This document shows positions 2,436 to 61,396 of a stretch of 64,000 bases of DNA, piece by piece. Under the pieces are notes generated by a model. The model saw nothing but the letters and a program-made list of their open reading frames with translations. It was not told the origin of the DNA and made no database searches. Numbering within the stretch: position 1 is the first letter of the stretch; each line of letters begins with the position of its first letter. The stretch comes from Pseudothermotoga thermarum DSM 5069 (GTDB taxonomy: Bacteria; Thermotogota; Thermotogae; Thermotogales; DSM-5069), in contig NC_015707.1 in NCBI RefSeq assembly GCF_000217815.1, forward strand, positions 1,600,014-1,664,013, read 5' to 3'. Position numbers and translations under genes: made by a program.

Positions 2436-3372
2436 CTTTCACAGGAGCCTCCTCCGTTTGAAGAATCTCATTTAAAACATCTTGCTTGGTTTTTCTCATC
2501 AACCTTGCTTCGGGTTTTAGTATTATCCTGTGTGCAAGAACATCAATCGCTATACTCTTCACATCATCGGGTAAAACGTAATTTCTTCCGTTCATCGCTG
2601 CTATAGCCCTTGAAAGCTGCATCAAAGCTATCGCGCCGCGAGGACTAGCTCCAAGGGCTAAATCTTCGTGGTTTCGGGTACGTTTGACAATCCTTATTAT
2701 GTAATCCAAGATCGATTCGTCCACGTAGACATTTTTAACCTCTTCTTTCGCTTGCTGAAGTTCTTGAACATCGCAAACAGGACCAATCGTTTCTATAGGA
2801 TGGACTTTTTTCAACCTTTTTAACATCTCTATTTCTTGGTCCTTTTCTGGATAGCCTACGGACAAACAGATGGCAAACCTGTCAAGTTGGGCTTCCGGTA
2901 ATGGAAAAGTACCTTCAAACTCGATTGGGTTTTGCGTTGCTATCACGAAAAAGTGCGGTGAAAGATGATAGGTTACACCATCGACCGTAACCTGTTTTTC
3001 AGCCATCGCTTGAAGCAAAGCCGACTGTGTCCTTGGAGTTGCGCGGTTTATCTCGTCCACCAAAATAATATCTGTGAAAATCGGCCCTTTTTTGAAAACA
3101 AATTCGTTTTGCTTTGTATCCAAGATGTTTAAACCTGTCACATCGCTTGGCAAAAGATCAGGTGTACATTGAATTCTGTTGAACGACAAGTTAATTGAGG
3201 CAGCCAAAGACCTTGCAAGCATGGTTTTACCTACACCAGGCACATCGTTCAACAGTACATGCCCATCGCTCAACATCGCCGCAAGAATTTTTTTAATCAC
3301 GTCTTCTTTTCCAACGATGACTTTCGACACGTTTTCTATTATCTTTCGCGCGAATTTTTCCAAAGTTGCCAT
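2425..3372 (-). CDS. MoxR family AAA+ ATPase
   Basis: A 315-residue AAA+ ATPase of the MoxR group, usual length. Walker A is LNDVPGVGKT at residues 41-50, Walker B IILVDEIN lies near 101-108 and the sensor motif ATQNP follows; the C-terminal lid carries GASPRGAIAL, typical of the family. MoxR proteins act as chaperone-like ATPases that help assemble or activate partner complexes, usually DUF58/VWA proteins encoded next door, as is the case here. The ATG at 3372 has GGGAGG eight bases upstream and lies inside the 3' end of the DUF6062-like gene, so it is co-transcribed with it and sits downstream of the fluoride riboswitch at 3990-4038. Confidence 0.95.
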   Translation of the reverse strand: MATLEKFARKIIENVSKVIVGKEDVIKKILAAMLSDGHVLLNDVPGVGKTMLARSLAASINLSFNRIQCTPDLLPSDVTGLNILDTKQNEFVFKKGPIFTDIILVDEINRATPRTQSALLQAMAEKQVTVDGVTYHLSPHFFVIATQNPIEFEGTFPLPEAQLDRFAICLSVGYPEKDQEIEMLKRLKKVHPIETIGPVCDVQELQQAKEEVKNVYVDESILDYIIRIVKRTRNHEDLALGASPRGAIALMQLSRAIAAMNGRNYVLPDDVKSIAIDVLAHRIILKPEARLMRKTKQDVLNEILQTEEAPVKGEA

Positions 3373-3951
3373 GTTTTCATCCTCCCAAACGACGTATTCA
3401 AGTTTGCTATCAATTTTGCAACATATCTATAGGCTTTTGCTTCCAACCCAATGGATTCTTTGTTTTTGTAATCGTGTTTTCTAATGACTTCCGTTAGTTG
3501 TTCTTTCAGGTTTTGAAGTTTCCCAAGCTGTATAGTTTTTAATTTGTCTGCGTTGTGAGTAGGCAAAGTTTTTTGAACCGCAAGGAAATGATCCAAACAA
3601 AAAACAGTTTTACTTTCTTCGTATTGGCAAAAGAAACATTTTTTTGGCAATGGTTGATCCGTTCTAAGTTGATCAATTCTTGTCGAGAGCAAATCTTCGT
3701 AGATTATCGATATACCAAGTATACCGTGTTCTGGGTGCTTGGACAAAAAAATCAACAAACAAGTCCGCATGCCTTTGACAAATTCCTTCTCTAAGTTGTG
3801 CTCTAACAACAGGATCGTTGACCAGTTCATACAAAATGGAATTGAACAAACCTTCAATTGCGTTGTTCACCATTCCACACACAGGGCACTCTGGTTCTTT
3901 GTTTTCCAACCACTCTAAAGCCTTTGATTCGGCTATACTTCTTGCTTGCAT
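3339..3951 (-). pseudogene. DUF6062-like Cys/His protein, frameshifted
   Basis: Two overlapping minus-strand frames make one protein if a single T is removed from a run of seven T (plus-strand A run 3745-3751). Frame one starts at ATG 3951 behind AGAGGA and reads CPVCG ... GICQRH ... LFVDF. Frame two continues LSKHPEHGILGIS ... CFFCQ ... FCLDHF and ends at 3339. The repeated CxxC plus CxxH pattern suggests two zinc sites and resembles DUF6062 proteins, whose function is unknown. The restored protein would be about 203 residues. The frame break may be a real mutation, a sequencing error in a homopolymer, or transcriptional slippage on T7. It is the first gene after the fluoride riboswitch and overlaps moxR by 34 bases. 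The family name is moderately supported. Confidence 0.7.
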
Positions 3952-5152: not shown

Positions 5153-5279
5153 TAATTCGAATTCTAAAATCCTTTGAAAAAAATTGTAAAACAAGCTTTG
5201 CCAGTTTACAAGCTGATTTAAAACCGTCTATTCTATAATTGGAGGTGTCAACTTAAGCTGGGGAATAAGATAAAATAAA

Positions 5280-5314
5280 CGGGAACCAACCTTCTCACCG
5301 AAAGGAGGTTCCCG
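5280..5314 (+). promoter_or_regulatory. Hairpin burying the transposase ribosome-binding site
   Basis: CGGGAACC (5280-5287) pairs with GGTTCCCG (5307-5314), with an inner CCTT/AAGG pairing. The right arm contains AAAGGAGG, the SD of the transposase ATG at 5320. Read-through transcripts entering the element would therefore hide the site, as in the foldback inhibition of IS10/IS50. The same hairpin is present at 59788-59823. Confidence 0.7.
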
Positions 5315-5319
5315 TAAAG

Positions 5320-6081
5320 ATGAAAGTTACAACAACATATATCACCGAGTACCTATACCAAATTATACCAAACCTTTTTCAAAGACAAAGAGTTCCACAT
5401 GAGGCGAAAGTATGAACTTGCATTAAGGAAGGCAGCAGCCATAATTGGAGTCAGTCATGAAGCCTTGAGGAAATGGTGGACAAGGATGAAAGAAGAGATA
5501 TTTGCTGAGAAGATAGAAGGCAATGCAGTAGTAGCTATAGACGAGATGAAGGTGAACATAAATGAGGTTAAGAGGAAGAAAGTGATCTATGCGTTGGTCA
5601 GCAAAACGCGAGAGAAGGACAAAGCGAGCTTGGTGATGAGACTTAGGGTGAATTTTGTGTCTGGACAAAATACCTCAGTTGAAACATCTGGTTCAGCTCA
5701 TACATACATCCCTTTACCCTCATTATCCCGTTCCTCCATTTTGTCTCCCTCAGGTTCTTCCTGTGCAAATATACGCTTAACTCCAATAGCTCAACACTCC
5801 CAAAATATCCCCCACTTTTTATCCTTACTCGCTCTATCTTGCTGTTTATGCTCTCCACAGGGCCATGGTACTGGGAAGCGAGAAAAAAGAATATGGGATA
5901 TTGGGAACACGAGCATGAGAGGTTTGGGGAAAGAAGTCTTGTTGAGAGCGTGATAGGGATAACGAGGTACAGGCTGAGGCGTTTTAACATAAGCAGGTTA
6001 TGGTACAAGAGGAGGGATGAGGACATAGTGAAGTGGCTATTTCCATTTCTTCTATTAGTACAGTTTTCCTTCTTAAGTTGA
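5320..6081 (+). pseudogene. Element A transposase, broken
   Basis: The 5' part encodes a helix-turn-helix region (IIGVSHEALRKWW) followed by VVAIDEMKVN, which holds a probable first catalytic Asp. The 3' part, after the IS256 insert, reads GPWYWEARKK ... HERFGERSLVESVIG, where the Glu in LVES fits the third catalytic residue of IS6-like DDE enzymes. An additional frameshift near 5360-5375 separates the first 20 codons (MKVTTTYITEYLY) from the HTH part (KDKEFHMRRKYEL), and copy 2 shares it. The gene is therefore disrupted by a frameshift, an insertion and a deletion. The assignment to the IS6 type is moderate. Confidence 0.75.
5643..5858 (-). pseudogene. IS256-type transposase, C-terminal fragment
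   Basis: The minus strand encodes VESINSKIERVRIKSGGYF through to FVQTQNSP and a stop, identical to the last 70 or so residues of the intact transposase at 60152-61396. The element's terminal repeat AATTTTGTGTCTGG lies at 5651-5664. The fragment contains the catalytic Glu (VES) but lacks everything upstream; the break is at 5858 where element A sequence resumes. Confidence 0.85.
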
Positions 6082-24413: not shown

Positions 24414-25478
24414 TCACATCTTTAGCAAGATTTCAACAATTCTTTTTGCCGATTCTCCATTTCCATAGACATCTGAAAAATGTTCAATTTTCTTTGTTAG
24501 AATGCTTAGAAAAACCTTATAGATATCACCACAACTTGAAAGCCTATTCCACCCAATTTCCACAAGCTCTCTCCAACCTGTGTCTGGCATCACAACTATT
24601 GCACGCTTGCCACAAAAATACGCCTCTTTCTGCAACCCACCACTGTCTGTTATCACCAAACTGCTCTTCTCCACCAACCCCATCATCTTCAAATAATCCA
24701 ACGGCTCTAACAACAAAACTCCTTTTTCTATCCTACCCATAAGCCCAAACTTTTCAAGCATCTTCTTCGTCCTTGGATGTACCGGAAATACAATCTGCAT
24801 CTGCTTCGATATCTTGTTCAAATTCTCAACTATAGCCTCGAGATTCTCTCTGTTGTCTGTGTTGAAATCCCTGTGAATTGTGCAAACTATGTATTCATTT
24901 TCTTTTAAACCGTATTCTCCTAAGACTGAATAATCAAAAAACGGTTTCATCTTCAAAAATAAATCGTACATCACATCTCCAACAAAGTAAACTCCTTCAG
25001 TTATTCCTTCTTTCTCAAGATTTTTCACAGCAAGCTGTGATGGACAGAATAACAATTTACTAACATGGTCTGTGACAACTCTGTTTATCTCCTCTGGCAT
25101 ATCCTTTGGTTTTTGCCTTATACCTGCTTCAACATGCGCAACAGGAATCTTTAGTTTTGCCCCAACAAGCGCACCTGCAAGTGTTGTGTTTGTATCTCCA
25201 TAGACAAGAATTACATCAGGTTTTTCTTTAAGAACAACTTTTTCAAATTCGATCATTATTTTCCCCGTAACTTCTCCATGCAGTCCTGAACCAACGTTGA
25301 GATTGTAATCTGGTTCTTTCATCCTTAGTACTTCGAAAAACACATCTGACATGTTGTAGTCGTAATGCTGTCCTGAGTGAACCAAGATCTCTTGAATACC
25401 AGCTTTTTGCAATTCTTCTTGAACAACGGCTTCTTTGATGAATTGTGGGCGCGCACCAACTAAGGAAAGAACTCTCAT
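24414..25478 (-). CDS. wecB: UDP-N-acetylglucosamine 2-epimerase
   Basis: A 354-residue enzyme that interconverts UDP-GlcNAc and UDP-ManNAc, supplying ManNAc for surface polysaccharides. Family motifs: GARPQFIKEAVV at residue 7, SGQHYDYNMSDVFF near 36, VYGDTNTTLAGALVGAKLKI, AHVEAGIR, EEINRVVTDHVS near 130, and ITDSGGLQKEAYFCGKRAIV near 275. All main active-site residues seem present. The start ATG follows AAAGGGGAAAAC. The codon use in the 3' third on the minus strand is richer in G than in neighbouring glycosyltransferase genes, perhaps a sign of different origin. Confidence 0.95.
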   Translation of the reverse strand: MRVLSLVGARPQFIKEAVVQEELQKAGIQEILVHSGQHYDYNMSDVFFEVLRMKEPDYNLNVGSGLHGEVTGKIMIEFEKVVLKEKPDVILVYGDTNTTLAGALVGAKLKIPVAHVEAGIRQKPKDMPEEINRVVTDHVSKLLFCPSQLAVKNLEKEGITEGVYFVGDVMYDLFLKMKPFFDYSVLGEYGLKENEYIVCTIHRDFNTDNRENLEAIVENLNKISKQMQIVFPVHPRTKKMLEKFGLMGRIEKGVLLLEPLDYLKMMGLVEKSSLVITDSGGLQKEAYFCGKRAIVVMPDTGWRELVEIGWNRLSSCGDIYKVFLSILTKKIEHFSDVYGNGESAKRIVEILLKM

Positions 25479-51449: not shown

Positions 51450-54400
51450 TTATTTTGTTAGGATCAAATTGCCAACCTTTGACATGTTCTGCCATGTGTT
51501 GTCCGTTGGATCACACCATTTCAAGATTCCAACTCTTCTTCCTTGGGCATTTGCGTCGTTCACCTGGAAGTCAAAGCCTATGGTCATGCCAGCTTGTGGT
51601 TTTATAACGCTCCATTTTACTGCAGCTTCAACTAGGTAGCCACCTTCGACTATCTTGGTTGCCGTTTTGAATCTTGCGGCACTTGCTCCTGTTCCGAAGG
51701 ATTGCTGGTTGGTAAAGTTCACTCTGAACTGTCCATCACCATCACGGTACGGTGGTGTCTTGTGGTTGGTTTCACTGATGAATATCTCAATGGAATCCTG
51801 TTCCCAAGCGTTGGAGTTGTCTTTGTTCAAAACAGGATCTTTTACAATTGCAAGTACGTACAGATATTCTTCATCCCACAATACTCTAAACTTTGCAGAG
51901 GCATTTTGCAACGAACCCATCACGACGACGTCTGTTTCAAGTTCCTCGGCTTTGTTCCAGATATCGTCTATTTCTCCATCTATCACCGGTGTGCCGTACA
52001 TGGCTTTACCCGTTTTGATACCCTCCAGTTTCAACGTACCGTAAGCGAGTGTGGAGAACTTTTGCTGATTCGTCGTATCAGACCAGCTGTACCATTTTCC
52101 ATCGTCGATGACGGCTATGTCAAAGCCTATCAATTGGTCGCGGGAGAATTTCACACCAGGCATTGAGATGGCCGCTTCAACAGAATATCTTCTGTAAGCT
52201 GGTCCAAGGAATCTTTCTACTTCGACGTTTTCACTTTTTTCAATTTCCCTGTTGTACCAAAAGATCACGTAAGCTGCTTGATCGTGGAGGAAAGGAGCTT
52301 TGAAGTTTTTGGGGTCAACGAAGATTGCAACACCATCTTTGTCGGGATTTCGAGTTGCGTCGTACACATCGGCGTAGATGTACAGTTTATCTTCGCCCCA
52401 TATTACTCGTGCAATCAATTTATCGTTACCATCGACAACTATTTTGATTGGAGGCGATTGCAAGAATGAATCATCCATTGTTCCAGCTATTATCGCTTCA
52501 CCAGGGACTATAGATCCTTCCTTTGAAGATGCGGGAATCAATTCTGGTTTAACAAGCGCCCAGTAAGCAAGCTTTGCATTGTAATTTTCGTCAAAAAGCA
52601 ATGGCCAGTTGTTTCTTCTAACAGGATATCCTCTGAGCCAAGAGTAATCGTCTTTCAATCCCCAGAAAGTAACGTTGTTTATGACATCACTGTACTTTTT
52701 GTATACTTCAAAGAGCCTGCGATAAAAGTTGGCTTGCTGGATCAAAAGATCGATTGGTGGGATTTCATACTTTGTGGCATTGTCTCTGTAAATGTTGACG
52801 TCAAGTTCAGTTATCTCAATCACAATGCCAGGTATAGTGGCATATAACGCAATCGCTTGCTCTATTTGTTCAATGCTTGTTCCGATGTTGATGTGCTGCT
52901 GCATACCTATACCATGAATGGGTATTCCTTTTTCTTTCATGTTCTTCACCATGTTGTAAATGACATCTCTTTTCTTTTGATGGTATTCGTTGTAATCGTT
53001 GTAGAAGAGCAAGGCATCTGGATCTGCTTCGTGAGCAAATTTGAAGGCAAGCTCTATGTAATCCGGCCCTATAACCTGATACCACAAACTCCTCCTCAAA
53101 CCATCAGGCTGATTCTCATCCACCGCCTCGTTCACCACATCCCACGCATACACCTTGCCTCTATACCTGCCTACAACTGTGTGTATGTACTCCCGCATCC
53201 TCTCTATCATCGCTTCCCTGCTCAATAAATTGCCCTTCTCATCCTTGAAAAACCACTCCGGCGTCTGACTGTGCCAAACAAGTGTATGACCCCTAACAAC
53301 CATCCCATGTTTCTGCGCAAACTCTATGTACCTGTCTGCAACCGTAAAATCATAGTAAATCTTCCCACTCGCATCCCTTCTCAATATACTCTCTGGTTTC
53401 ATCTCGTTCTCAGCCGTCATACTGTTAAAGTGCTTCGTAATTAACTCCACATCCATCGAATTGCTGAAAACTCTAACTGGTAGAGCGACACCAATTTTGA
53501 AGTGTTCTGCAAACAGTTCTTTCAAAGCAACAGGTCCAAAATCAGGTGGGATTTTGACTTGAGCAGCTTTTTGTCGACCAAGGACTTGGAAGTTATCGAT
53601 GTAAAAGTTATAGTCCACAGCATTTGGTGAGACTATTAGAATAGCTACTTTTTCATAGTCGTCAGCTTTTAGATTGAAGTATCCAACAGCGGTTGACCAA
53701 GTTTTTGGCATGGCGATTTTGTAGCCTATGTACGAATAATTTTCAGCTTTTTTGGTTTTGGTGTAAAGTAAAAATGCGAACGGTTTTGGTTCATCACAGT
53801 CGTGGTATACGTTAGCTATGACCATCATGTTGGAATCTACCAAGTCTTTTGCGAATTTCGTCATATCGACAATACAACCGTCATACAGTAAAGCCCTGCC
53901 TGAAATTTTCAGCGAGTATTTTCCTTCGCTTGCAACCACATCTGTTCTGGAAAGTTCTGCCCTTCCAAAGGGCGCAAAGCCGTTGAGATTGTCCTCAAAT
54001 TTTGCTACAAATTCAAATTGAGCAGCTGCCTCTCCAACAGGAGCTGATAGATCGATTATCATCACATCGTCTACATAGAAATCCAATGTGGCATTGTCGG
54101 ATTCGAAGTAAAAGACAAGTTCTTCCGCTGGTGCTCTAACGGTGTAGACTCCCTCGATTTTCACCCATTTTCCGCTTGGCGCTGTGACAGTTGCAATTCT
54201 GTCCCAACCTCTGGATTCACCAGCGTAAACTCTTTGCATGGTTATAATTATTGGTTGATCTGAGCCAGAGTTCTGATAGACCCATCCTTCGAATTTGTAT
54301 TGGCGAGTGGGTTTCAAAATATCAGTCAAGACAAGTTGGGCACCATGCCATCCGCTGGTTCTACCGGAAATATAGAGCGATTTCGATCCACTGTGGGCAA

Positions 54401-54983
54401 CTGCACTGCTCAGTTCAATTTTCGCAGCACCACGATTTTGCCAGTTGCCAAGATCTTTTTCAAAGTCAAAGATCATCGCACCCGTTAGATCAACGATCAA
54501 AACGTCGTCAATGTAGAAATCAAGCGTTGCATTTTCCGATTCAAAGTAGAACAACAGCTCATCAGCTGAAGCTCTCACCGTGTAAGTTCCTTCGATTTTC
54601 GTCCACTTACCGCTTGGCGCGACAACTTGCGCAATTCTGTCCCATCCTCTAGATTCACCAGAGTAAGTTCTTTGCATAGTAATTATCATAACTTGATCTG
54701 ATCCAGAATTTTGATAAACCCATCCCTCAAATTTGTACTGACGAGTTGGCTTTAAAACTGCCGTCAAATCAAGTGAAGCCCCGTGCCAACCTGCCGTTCT
54801 ACCGGAGACGTACAAGGATTTCGATCCGCCATGTGCGACAGCATCACTTAAGGCTATGCTTGCAGCACCTCGCCCACGCCAATCTCCATAAGTTGTCTCA
54901 AAATCGTAATTTGCTACAACGGCAGCAAGAACCACGTTGGAGATGATCAACAGTACTGTAACAAGCTTTAATACCCTTTGCAT
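51450..54983 (-). CDS. xynA: Multidomain secreted endo-1,4-beta-xylanase (CBM22-GH10-CBM9)
   Basis: A 1177-residue xylanase. After a signal peptide come two closely similar CBM22 modules (about 22-165 and 168-315; both contain GWHGA, KFEGWVYQNSGSDQ and ATLDFY-DDV). A third, divergent CBM22/CBM4-like module follows (325-478, FEDNLNGFAPFGRAELSR), then the GH10 barrel (488-808) and two CBM9 modules (825-990 and 990-1177). The GH10 acid/base Glu is in WDVVNEAV near 619 and the nucleophile in VIEITELDVN near 724. CBM22 modules add thermostability and xylan binding; CBM9 binds sugar chain ends. T. maritima XynA (1059 residues) lacks the third N-terminal module. Residues of about 501-655 come from a tract identical to that in the next gene. 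Confidence 0.95.
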   Translation of the reverse strand: MQRVLKLVTVLLIISNVVLAAVVANYDFETTYGDWRGRGAASIALSDAVAHGGSKSLYVSGRTAGWHGASLDLTAVLKPTRQYKFEGWVYQNSGSDQVMIITMQRTYSGESRGWDRIAQVVAPSGKWTKIEGTYTVRASADELLFYFESENATLDFYIDDVLIVDLTGAMIFDFEKDLGNWQNRGAAKIELSSAVAHSGSKSLYISGRTSGWHGAQLVLTDILKPTRQYKFEGWVYQNSGSDQPIIITMQRVYAGESRGWDRIATVTAPSGKWVKIEGVYTVRAPAEELVFYFESDNATLDFYVDDVMIIDLSAPVGEAAAQFEFVAKFEDNLNGFAPFGRAELSRTDVVASEGKYSLKISGRALLYDGCIVDMTKFAKDLVDSNMMVIANVYHDCDEPKPFAFLLYTKTKKAENYSYIGYKIAMPKTWSTAVGYFNLKADDYEKVAILIVSPNAVDYNFYIDNFQVLGRQKAAQVKIPPDFGPVALKELFAEHFKIGVALPVRVFSNSMDVELITKHFNSMTAENEMKPESILRRDASGKIYYDFTVADRYIEFAQKHGMVVRGHTLVWHSQTPEWFFKDEKGNLLSREAMIERMREYIHTVVGRYRGKVYAWDVVNEAVDENQPDGLRRSLWYQVIGPDYIELAFKFAHEADPDALLFYNDYNEYHQKKRDVIYNMVKNMKEKGIPIHGIGMQQHINIGTSIEQIEQAIALYATIPGIVIEITELDVNIYRDNATKYEIPPIDLLIQQANFYRRLFEVYKKYSDVINNVTFWGLKDDYSWLRGYPVRRNNWPLLFDENYNAKLAYWALVKPELIPASSKEGSIVPGEAIIAGTMDDSFLQSPPIKIVVDGNDKLIARVIWGEDKLYIYADVYDATRNPDKDGVAIFVDPKNFKAPFLHDQAAYVIFWYNREIEKSENVEVERFLGPAYRRYSVEAAISMPGVKFSRDQLIGFDIAVIDDGKWYSWSDTTNQQKFSTLAYGTLKLEGIKTGKAMYGTPVIDGEIDDIWNKAEELETDVVVMGSLQNASAKFRVLWDEEYLYVLAIVKDPVLNKDNSNAWEQDSIEIFISETNHKTPPYRDGDGQFRVNFTNQQSFGTGASAARFKTATKIVEGGYLVEAAVKWSVIKPQAGMTIGFDFQVNDANAQGRRVGILKWCDPTDNTWQNMSKVGNLILTK
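53017..53482. repeat. 466-bp xylanase identity tract, copy 1
   Basis: This segment reads identically by eye to 55494-55959, while both flanks diverge quickly. Its base composition is also richer in G/C than its surroundings. See the partner entry. Confidence 0.88.
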
Positions 54984-55003
54984 CTGCTAACCCCCCTCCC
55001 TAT

Positions 55004-56098
55004 TTACTTGGAAACTGATTCTATTACACTCCAAAAAGCTGGTTTGGGTTGATAATTTTCGTCAAATAAAAGCGGCCAATCGTTTCTACGACCAAAGAAA
55101 AACCTTAGCCACGAATAGTCATCTTTCAAACCCCAGAAGGTAACGTTGGTTATGACGTCAGTGTGTTTCCTATAGATTTCGAACAACTTGCGGTAAAATT
55201 CCGCTTGCTCCTTGAGCACCTCCAAGGGTGGCGTTTGATAGATAATAGATGGACTGCGTGATTTGTAAACACTAACATCAAGCTCAGTTATGTGAATTTG
55301 TATACCTGAAATGGTCTTGAATTTTTGAATAGCAATATCAATCCAACCTACGTTATCTGCAAGAGTTAAATGTTGCTGCATGCCAATACCATGAATCGGT
55401 ACACCCTTTTCTCTCATTTCTTTTACCAATTTGAAGATGATGTCTCGCTTTTTGGGGAAAAATTCGTTGTAATCGTTGTAGAAGAGTAAGGCGTCTGGAT
55501 CTGCTTCGTGAGCAAATTTGAAGGCAAGCTCTATGTAATCCGGCCCTATAACCTGATACCACAAACTCCTCCTCAAACCATCAGGCTGATTCTCATCCAC
55601 CGCCTCGTTCACCACATCCCACGCATACACCTTGCCTCTATACCTGCCTACAACTGTGTGTATGTACTCCCGCATCCTCTCTATCATCGCTTCCCTGCTC
55701 AATAAATTGCCCTTCTCATCCTTGAAAAACCACTCCGGCGTCTGACTGTGCCAAACAAGTGTATGACCCCTAACAACCATCCCATGTTTCTGCGCAAACT
55801 CTATGTACCTGTCTGCAACCGTAAAATCATAGTAAATCTTCCCACTCGCATCCCTTCTCAATATACTCTCTGGTTTCATCTCGTTCTCAGCCGTCATACT
55901 GTTAAAGTGCTTCGTAATTAACTCCACATCCATCGAATTGCTGAAAACTCTAACTGGTAAAGCTACTCCTATTTTGAAATCCTGCAAAAAAACATCCTTA
56001 AGGGATGGTATCTGTGACGACATGGGCTGTGGTCCTCCTTTGATTATCACAGTAAAGACTATAAGCAACAATGTGATGGCGAAAATCAGCTTTTTCAT
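55004..56098 (-). CDS. xynB: Secreted GH10 endo-1,4-beta-xylanase, single domain
   Basis: A 364-residue xylanase made of a signal or anchor helix (KKLIFAITLLLIVFTVIIKG) and one GH10 barrel. The acid/base is in WDVVNEAV near residue 163, the nucleophile in IQIHITELDVSVY near 271, and WGLKDDYSWL near 320 forms part of the substrate cleft. The whole chain from VALPVRVFSNS to LLFYNDYNE is identical to the same part of XynA, although the regions before and after are clearly different. It probably cleaves soluble xylan fragments made by XynA. It lies 20 bases upstream of xynA in one operon, behind the promoter at 56149-56177. Confidence 0.95.
   Translation of the reverse strand: MKKLIFAITLLLIVFTVIIKGGPQPMSSQIPSLKDVFLQDFKIGVALPVRVFSNSMDVELITKHFNSMTAENEMKPESILRRDASGKIYYDFTVADRYIEFAQKHGMVVRGHTLVWHSQTPEWFFKDEKGNLLSREAMIERMREYIHTVVGRYRGKVYAWDVVNEAVDENQPDGLRRSLWYQVIGPDYIELAFKFAHEADPDALLFYNDYNEFFPKKRDIIFKLVKEMREKGVPIHGIGMQQHLTLADNVGWIDIAIQKFKTISGIQIHITELDVSVYKSRSPSIIYQTPPLEVLKEQAEFYRKLFEIYRKHTDVITNVTFWGLKDDYSWLRFFFGRRNDWPLLFDENYQPKPAFWSVIESVSK
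55494..55959. repeat. 466-bp xylanase identity tract, copy 2
   Basis: Same sequence as 53017-53482, direct orientation, 2477 bases apart. It covers the first third of the GH10 barrel, including the acid/base Glu. This arrangement is typical of gene conversion between tandem paralogues. Confidence 0.88.
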
Positions 56099-59662: not shown

Positions 59663-59787
59663 TCATTCCCCCTCCTCTTTCGAGAATATATACGGACATT
59701 GATTTTTTATCTAATACGTTGCATCAAATTACTCTTCCTCATTGACATGGAGGTGTCAACTTAAGCCGGGGAATACGATAAAATAAA

Positions 59788-59823
59788 CGGGAACCAACTC
59801 TTCTCACCGAAAGGAGGTTCCCG
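59788..59823 (+). promoter_or_regulatory. SD-sequestering hairpin, copy 2
   Basis: CGGGAACC pairs with GGTTCCCG as at 5280-5314, with one extra loop base. The AAAGGAGG serving ATG 59829 lies in the right arm. Confidence 0.65.
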
Positions 59824-59828
59824 TAAAG

Positions 59829-60159
59829 ATGAAAGTTACAACAACAAATATCACCGAGTACCTATACCAAATTATACCAAACCTTTTTCAAAGACAAAGA
59901 GTTCCACATGAGGCGAAAGTATGAACTTGCATTAAGGAAGGCAGCAGCCATAATTGGAGTCAGTCATGAAGCCTTGAGGAAATGGTGGACAAGGATGAAA
60001 GAAGAGATATTTGCTGAGAAGATAGAAGGCAATGCAGTAGTAGCTATAGACGAGATGAAGGTGAACATAAATGAGGTTAAGAGGAAGAAAGTGATCTATG
60101 CGTTGGTCAGCAAAACGCGAGAGAAGGACAAAGCGAGCTTGGTGATGAGACTTAGGGTG
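59829..60159 (+). pseudogene. Element A transposase, 5' fragment
   Basis: The frame starts MKVTTTNITEYLYQ, shifts frame near 59880 as in copy 1, and continues KDKEFHMRRKYELALRKAAA, then IIGVSHEALRKWWTRMKEEI to KDKASLVMRLR, where the IS256 element begins. The second and third catalytic residues are missing. Confidence 0.8.
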
Positions 60160-61396
60160 AATTTTGTGTCTGGACAAAATACCTCAGTTGAAACATCTGG
60201 TTCAGCTCATACATACATCCCTTTACCCTCATTATCCCGTTCCTCCATTTTGTCTCCCTCAGGTTCTTCCTGTGCAAATATACGCTTAACTCCAATAGCT
60301 CAACACTCCCAAAATATCCCCCACTTTTAATCCTTACTCGCTCTATCTTGCTGTTTATGCTCTCCACCGCATTCGTCGTGTATATGTATCCCCTCAATTC
60401 CTCAGGATATTTCGTATATGCCACGTATTTCTCTTTCTTACCCTCCAAATATCTCACAAAACTCGGATACTCCTCTTTGTACTTCTCAAGCAACTTACCC
60501 ATCTTCCCTAATGCCTCTTCATAGCTGAGTTTCTTCAATTCGTCCAACCCTTCCTTGAACCCCTTCGCATCCTCTCGCTTCATTTGCCTATCCGCATTCC
60601 TCTTCAAATGCTTCACACAAAGCTGGTGATCCGCTAATGGATATACCATCCTTATTATCTCCCCTAAGCCACTTAAATCGTCGCTTACTACTACCATCAC
60701 CCTCTTCAAGCCACGTCTCACCAAATCCTCAAATACCTTCCCCCATTCCACCCTGCTCTCCTTACCCAAATACGTGTACAAACCGTATATGTCCTTCTTC
60801 CCCTCCATGTCTATCCCCAATACTATGTAGCATACCCCATACCTTACTTTCCCTTCTTCCCTTATCTCACTGTGGTAACCATCTATTATTAGCGCAAATG
60901 CCTCACTCGGTAGCTCCCTCTCCTTGAACCATCTCAATTCTTCCTTCAACCCTTCCTTTATCCTCTCAAGCTCCTTCTCCGAGTATGGTAAGCCTAACCT
61001 CTTCAAAACACTCATTATCTCAGACTCCGAAAACCCACTCGCTATCATCGATTCCAATAACTTAACATACGATTCGTCCAGCCTCTTGTACTTTTCCTTC
61101 AATAAATGTGGCCTAAAACCGCCTTTCCTCGTCCTCGGTACTTCAAGTTCCAAAATTCCATACGTGCTGTAAAGATCCCTTTCATACTTCCCGTTCCCTT
61201 TGTCCCCTTCCTCAGTCTCAAGATATATCTTTCTCTCTGAAAGCATTATCGCGTTCAAAAGCCTTTCAAACAAATCTGCAAGTGTTTCCCTTTGCTTTTG
61301 ATCAGAATCATCCGCATATTCCTTAAGCAACATCTCTAAAGACCTTTTCTTGACTTGTTCAAAGTATTCCCTGTCTTCCAGAAATTTGTTCGACAT
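60152..61396 (-). CDS. IS256-family (mutator-type) transposase
   Basis: A 414-residue transposase, the usual length. ATG 61396 follows AAGGAGGTGTCGGGC; the frame extends upstream through the terminal repeat without a site. Catalytic residues: Asp in FALIIDGYHSEIREE near residue 185, Asp in VVVSDDLSGLGEI near 240, and Glu in YTTNAVESINSKIERVR near 345, with HLCVKH-type ADHQLCVKHLKRN between. The stop codon lies a few bases outside the left terminal repeat, inside element A. It appears intact, so this copy may still move itself and related ends. Confidence 0.95.
   Translation of the reverse strand: MSNKFLEDREYFEQVKKRSLEMLLKEYADDSDQKQRETLADLFERLLNAIMLSERKIYLETEEGDKGNGKYERDLYSTYGILELEVPRTRKGGFRPHLLKEKYKRLDESYVKLLESMIASGFSESEIMSVLKRLGLPYSEKELERIKEGLKEELRWFKERELPSEAFALIIDGYHSEIREEGKVRYGVCYIVLGIDMEGKKDIYGLYTYLGKESRVEWGKVFEDLVRRGLKRVMVVVSDDLSGLGEIIRMVYPLADHQLCVKHLKRNADRQMKREDAKGFKEGLDELKKLSYEEALGKMGKLLEKYKEEYPSFVRYLEGKKEKYVAYTKYPEELRGYIYTTNAVESINSKIERVRIKSGGYFGSVELLELSVYLHRKNLRETKWRNGIMRVKGCMYELNQMFQLRYFVQTQNSP

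Follow-up and report, generated by a model that had tools for sequence, protein, structure and literature searches.

Probable recent gene conversion between two tandem GH10 xylanase genes of Pseudothermotoga thermarum, enclosing an older segment of atypical codon usage

Gene conversion between paralogues is known in bacteria, for example in release-factor genes (PMC4530459), and 26 prokaryotic gene families show long-lasting concerted evolution (PMC6053082). Two tandem xylanase genes of P. thermarum, referred to here as A and B, resemble these known conversions in that the homogenisation of the paralogues affects part of the gene or its whole length and extends to synonymous sites. They differ from them in being a single, apparently recently converted pair that encodes polysaccharide-degrading enzymes, and in that the shared tract holds an older segment of alien codons. 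No paper linking gene conversion with Thermotoga xylanases was found in the literature searched.

A parallel occurs in a Thermotoga genome of 1,884,562 bp (G036), taken here to be that of T. neapolitana, in which two long GH10 genes share the following tract:

L104 1732-3557 and L098: near-identical GH10 tract of G036, 1,826 bp with 8 differences

This tract starts abruptly within conserved GH10 codons, and it is an independent GH10 conversion, which brings the number of such events in Thermotogales to at least two. Like A and B, the Thermotoga genes are GH10 paralogues with a near-identical, sharply edged tract; unlike A and B, they lie 630 kb apart, their tract is longer, contains differences and reaches near the gene end, and they have no compositional anomaly, the converted pair showing no shift relative to an unconverted orthologue. 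The L104 copy reads TERNNMKP where all relatives read TAENEMK, and the activity of the enzyme predicted from it may be impaired.

The P. thermarum genome (strain LA3/DSM 5069) is closed, in a single contig of 2,039,943 bp. Unless a contig is named, coordinates refer to positions in the window, the 64,000-nt stretch of this genome that was analyzed.

51450-54983, minus strand: gene A, Xyn10A (xynA, Theth_1635), long secreted xylanase of 1,177 aa (ORF, Pfam, PMC3598563)
55004-56098, minus strand: gene B, Xyn11 (xynB), short secreted xylanase of 364 aa consisting of GH10 alone (ORF, Pfam, PMC12454871)

The two genes are arranged in tandem in the same orientation, with 20 bp between them. According to Pfam, gene A encodes three CBM4_9 domains, a GH10 domain and two CBM9 domains, the same CBM-GH10-CBM9 architecture as the long XynA-type enzymes of Thermotoga. 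Two tandem carbohydrate-binding modules of A (54048-54347 and 54486-54785) share 74% DNA identity over 300 bp and are an ordinary internal duplication. Gene B belongs to the XynA clade as one of its short members; the short XynB of Thermotoga, about 40% identical to B, is not its orthologue. Residues 22-364 of B are identical to PDB 7NL2. The GH10 domain scores 355 bits in A and 355 bits in B, and both catalytic glutamates are present. Xyn10A has been named and assayed, with an optimum at pH 7 and 95 °C (PMC3598563), while the optimum of Xyn11 is pH 10.5 and 90 °C (PMC9654485). Shi et al. gave the similarity of the two catalytic domains as 78% (PMC3598563); this figure is an average over one identical and one diverged half, which went unremarked in that study.

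The features of the shared region are as follows:

53017-53482, minus strand: putative conversion tract, A copy, 466 bp, codons 501-656 of A (exact comparison, permutation test, codon positions)
55494-55959, minus strand: putative conversion tract, B copy, 466 bp, codons 47-202 of B (exact comparison, codon positions)
52985-53016, minus strand: 32 bp by which the tract may extend further in A, corresponding to 55462-55493 in B (exact comparison)
53127-53129, minus strand: acid/base codon (Glu619) of A, covered by the tract (in B, 55604-55606, Glu165); E144 in PDB 7NL2 numbering
52806-52808, minus strand: nucleophile codon (Glu726) of A, not covered by the tract (in B, 55283-55285, Glu272); E251 in PDB 7NL2 numbering

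An earlier note on this DNA had described a 466-bp stretch that looked identical in xynA and xynB, contained the catalytic acid/base and was bordered by strongly differing sequences, and all three observations hold. In an exact comparison the two copies, offset by 2,477 bp, agree at 466 of 466 positions, with no scattered differences along the tract, while the GH10 3' flanks of A and B have 61% DNA identity and 56% protein identity, and the match outside the tract is about 60% in DNA overall. By motif, the tract presumably spans from just past beta1 to about beta5 and thereby covers the greater part of the TIM barrel's first half. It makes 155 residues identical between A and B, including the acid/base; the positions of the two catalytic residues agree with those published for Xyn11, E144 and E251 (PMC12454871). 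Past 53482, four differences between A and B occur within 11 bp. The 32-bp extension at the other end contains two mismatches, both synonymous (53010 and 53016), and it is ambiguous as part of the tract, the FYNDYNE block being conserved across all relatives.

The longest identical run in 20,000 codon shuffles was 93, compared with the 466 observed, and when only the 521 sites variable in the family were considered, the observed run was 229 compared with at most 38. Third positions are equal in all 134 codons of the inner segment described below, compared with 39 of the 84 codons for shared residues in the 3' flank. Since the tract is identical at every synonymous site, the identity cannot be the result of purifying selection on the protein. 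RNA structure gave no signal under the tract (z = -0.12), and its antisense strand contains ORFs of 123 and 57 aa only.

P. thermarum has only two GH10 genes, and the tract occurs twice in its genome; a third copy, from which the tract had been suggested to have spread, is absent from the closed genome. Maximum-likelihood (ML) trees and comparisons made use of the single-domain GH10 genes of two Pseudothermotoga MAGs (L003 and L095). In the 3' flank, protein identity to L003 and L095 is 75% and 73% for A, and 66% and 62% for B; in the flank ML trees, A groups with the two MAG genes and B falls outside. The tract groups with L003 and L095 at the same relative DNA depth as A's flank, so that the tract and flank phylogenies conflict in the recipient. 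Because the ancestry of the tract follows the flank of A and not that of B, B was most likely overwritten, which makes A the likely donor and B the likely recipient. A donor test, in which the flank tree was pruned to A or B and then scaled onto the tract, presumes equal relative rates in tract and flank, B having the longer flank branch; it favours A over B by 15.95 +/- 4.79 lnL for protein and 18.0 +/- 6.8 lnL for DNA, and under 0.5% of the bootstrap replicates over sites reverse this preference. Were the inner segment of foreign origin, the tree of the tract would partly show the kinship of a foreign donor instead of that of A.

Copying in the opposite direction, from the short gene B into A, would fit the short genes of the two MAGs, which have the architecture of B and resemble the tract. 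Outside the tract, however, the same genes are nearer to A than to B in the protein comparison above, and the scaled-tree test favours A by 16-18 lnL; a B donor is thus unlikely. The identical synonymous sites, the sharp boundaries, the conflicting phylogenies and the presence of two copies in a closed genome speak strongly for the gene conversion proposed by the earlier note, and the sequences very probably record a recent intragenomic conversion from A to B, with an older segment of alien codons already present in the donor. A RecA-type event would have copied about 0.5 kb from xynA into xynB by non-reciprocal homologous recombination. The part of B's (beta/alpha)8 barrel exchanged in this way would be the bulk of its first half, beginning directly behind beta1 and ending near beta5, while B would have retained its own 5' end, beta6-beta8 and the nucleophile.

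The tract had also been described as more G/C-rich than its surroundings. Its GC (46.3%) and GC3 (55.2%) are indeed raised, placing the tract among the highest 1-2% of windows sampled from the genome, but only third-position G rises and C falls: third positions of the tract are 41.6% G, 13.6% C, 15.6% A and 29.2% T, compared with genome means of 19.7% G, 18.9% C and 31.5% A. The third-position G+T share exceeds that of all 690 background windows, the background being stretches that cover about one third of the genome (528 genes). Segmentation by third base confines the anomaly to an inner part of the tract:

53061-53462, minus strand: inner segment of alien composition in A, codons 508-641, 134 codons with 47% G, 13% A, 11% C and 29% T (segmentation)
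55538-55939, minus strand: inner segment in B (2,477-bp offset)

The segmentation score for A is 35.7, compared with a maximum of 21.0 among 130 other genes, and B segmented by itself yields nearly the same segment (codons 55-186). Both edges lie within the tract: the segment begins seven codons past the tract start and ends about 15 codons short of the tract end, and those 15 codons contain a single third-position G (P = 0.001). Forcing the segment edges onto the tract edges costs 8.9 lnL. This nesting of the edges within the conversion tract indicates that the anomalous composition probably predates the copying between A and B.

Corrected for amino acids, third-position G reaches z > 6 only in transposases, the two xylanases and a wecB-like gene among the 528 background genes. 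The codon score of the segment toward transposase usage, with the Mutator/IS256, IS240-type and DDE_Tnp_1 families as reference, is +0.24 per codon, compared with a genome mean of -0.21 (sd 0.075), and in the one-third genome sample only transposases match transposase codon usage better than the segment does. At third positions where L003 and L095 agree, the tract shows 18 A>G changes and 2 G>A, and 12 C>T and 3 T>C; the same comparison in A's flank gives 4 A>G and 4 G>A, and 7 C>T and 4 T>C. First and second positions show no comparable excess of changes toward or away from G and C. A single burst of hypermutation is therefore unlikely as the source of the segment, which instead appears to have evolved for long under a different regime while its protein was kept by selection.

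The wecB-like gene encodes a UDP-GlcNAc 2-epimerase (24417-25478, minus strand) and has a G-rich segment at codons 218-312, with 51% G and 5% C. This segment has no second copy in the genome, and the gene is a second candidate mosaic gene. Among the resident transposons, an IS256/Mutator transposase at 60155-61396 (minus strand) has 44% G and 11% C at third positions; it is present in six full-length genome copies of 99-100% identity as well as fragments, and no close relative was found within the phylum. A 620-bp repeat with 99% identity (5240-5858 and 59748-60367) is a partial copy of the IS256/Mutator insertion-sequence region, and its copy at 59748-60367 lies about 4 kb from gene B. Elsewhere, on L110, two identical DDE transposase ORFs of 145 aa (684-1118 and 3309-3743), about 2.6 kb apart, have 50% third-position G. 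Conversion itself was rejected as the cause of the composition: the Thermotoga pair is unshifted, and a comparable segment is present in single copy in the wecB-like gene.

The codon usage shared with resident transposases and the position of the edges inside the conversion tract make a foreign origin of the inner segment plausible, as the earlier note had surmised. The closer donor implied by that view was not found among 103 Thermotogota genomes, plasmids, phages and viral contigs. The best DNA match in the phylum (77%) is in another genus of the family, and G-rich, C-poor third positions are absent in all 20 sampled relatives. The phylogeny of the segment is Pseudothermotoga-like, with the same placement as A's flank and no conflict. 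The sharp edges suggest that the segment arrived by recombination from a relative or an element whose codons are rich in G, and that its copying, together with native-like margins, came afterwards; it most likely would have come from a pool of DNA with G-rich codons that also supplied the resident transposons. The order of events, segment first and conversion second, is better supported than the origin of the segment.

The abundance of third-position G in the xylanase segment, the wecB-like segment and three unrelated transposase families might instead reflect one strand-specific process, with A>G and C>T changes on the coding strand, that acts on moving or recombining DNA and involves no import; this account is decidedly unlikely. 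Similarly improbable is a separate import of G-rich foreign xylanase DNA into both genes, with neither copy native and no copying between A and B. It would account for the transposase-like codon usage alien to this genome and for the segment edges inside the tract. Against it, the closest match in the phylum reaches just 77% DNA identity, no sampled relative shares the third-position usage, the plasmid, phage and viral collections hold no close match and the protein still groups with Pseudothermotoga; moreover, two imports with identical native-like margins are less economical than an import followed by conversion.

Conversion from A to B is inferred from one strain, and the perfect identity rests on a single 2011 assembly, whose finished version combines 454 and Illumina data, including 10-kb pairs (PMC4148951). 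The published Xyn10A and Xyn11 enzymes were made from synthetic genes and so provide no independent confirmation of the sequence (PMC3598563, PMC12454871). The earlier note had raised the alternative of an assembly collapse, in which reads of both paralogues were merged so that A and B received a common consensus sequence; the 466 bp exceed Illumina reads and are near 454 read length, and 454 depth was just 6.8x (PMC4148951). Such a collapse requires near-identical starting copies, however, whereas copies with the 30-40% divergence of the flanks would assemble separately. In addition, the displaced sequence is absent from the closed genome, 10-kb paired ends and repeat resolution went into finishing the assembly (PMC4148951), and a similar tract exists in the separately sequenced Thermotoga genome. 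The most that a collapse could do is to remove a few differences among near-identical copies; it cannot make one sequence out of copies that are about 60-70% alike, which renders it highly improbable as the source of the tract. GC-biased gene conversion, which would explain identity and composition together and fits the tract exceeding the remainder of both genes in GC and GC3, has next to no chance of being correct: third-position C drops to 14% as G climbs to 42%, the 18 A>G and 2 G>A against 12 C>T and 3 T>C changes show no bias to both G and C, and the converted Thermotoga pair is unshifted relative to its unconverted orthologue.

The process at work in A and B is a known one, and what is unusual is the layered structure, a recent conversion tract around an older core of alien codons. 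The two genes provide a clean natural exchange of half a barrel between two characterised hyperthermophilic xylanases. Because 155 residues, including the acid/base, are identical and yet the optima differ, the differences in pH and temperature must stem from the remainder of the enzymes. Trees or designs that take the GH10 domains of A and B as single units would be misled. The Thermotoga parallel suggests that conversion recurs among GH10 xylanases, and the nested segment of alien codons is a layered record of recombination that might be followed in hot-spring populations.
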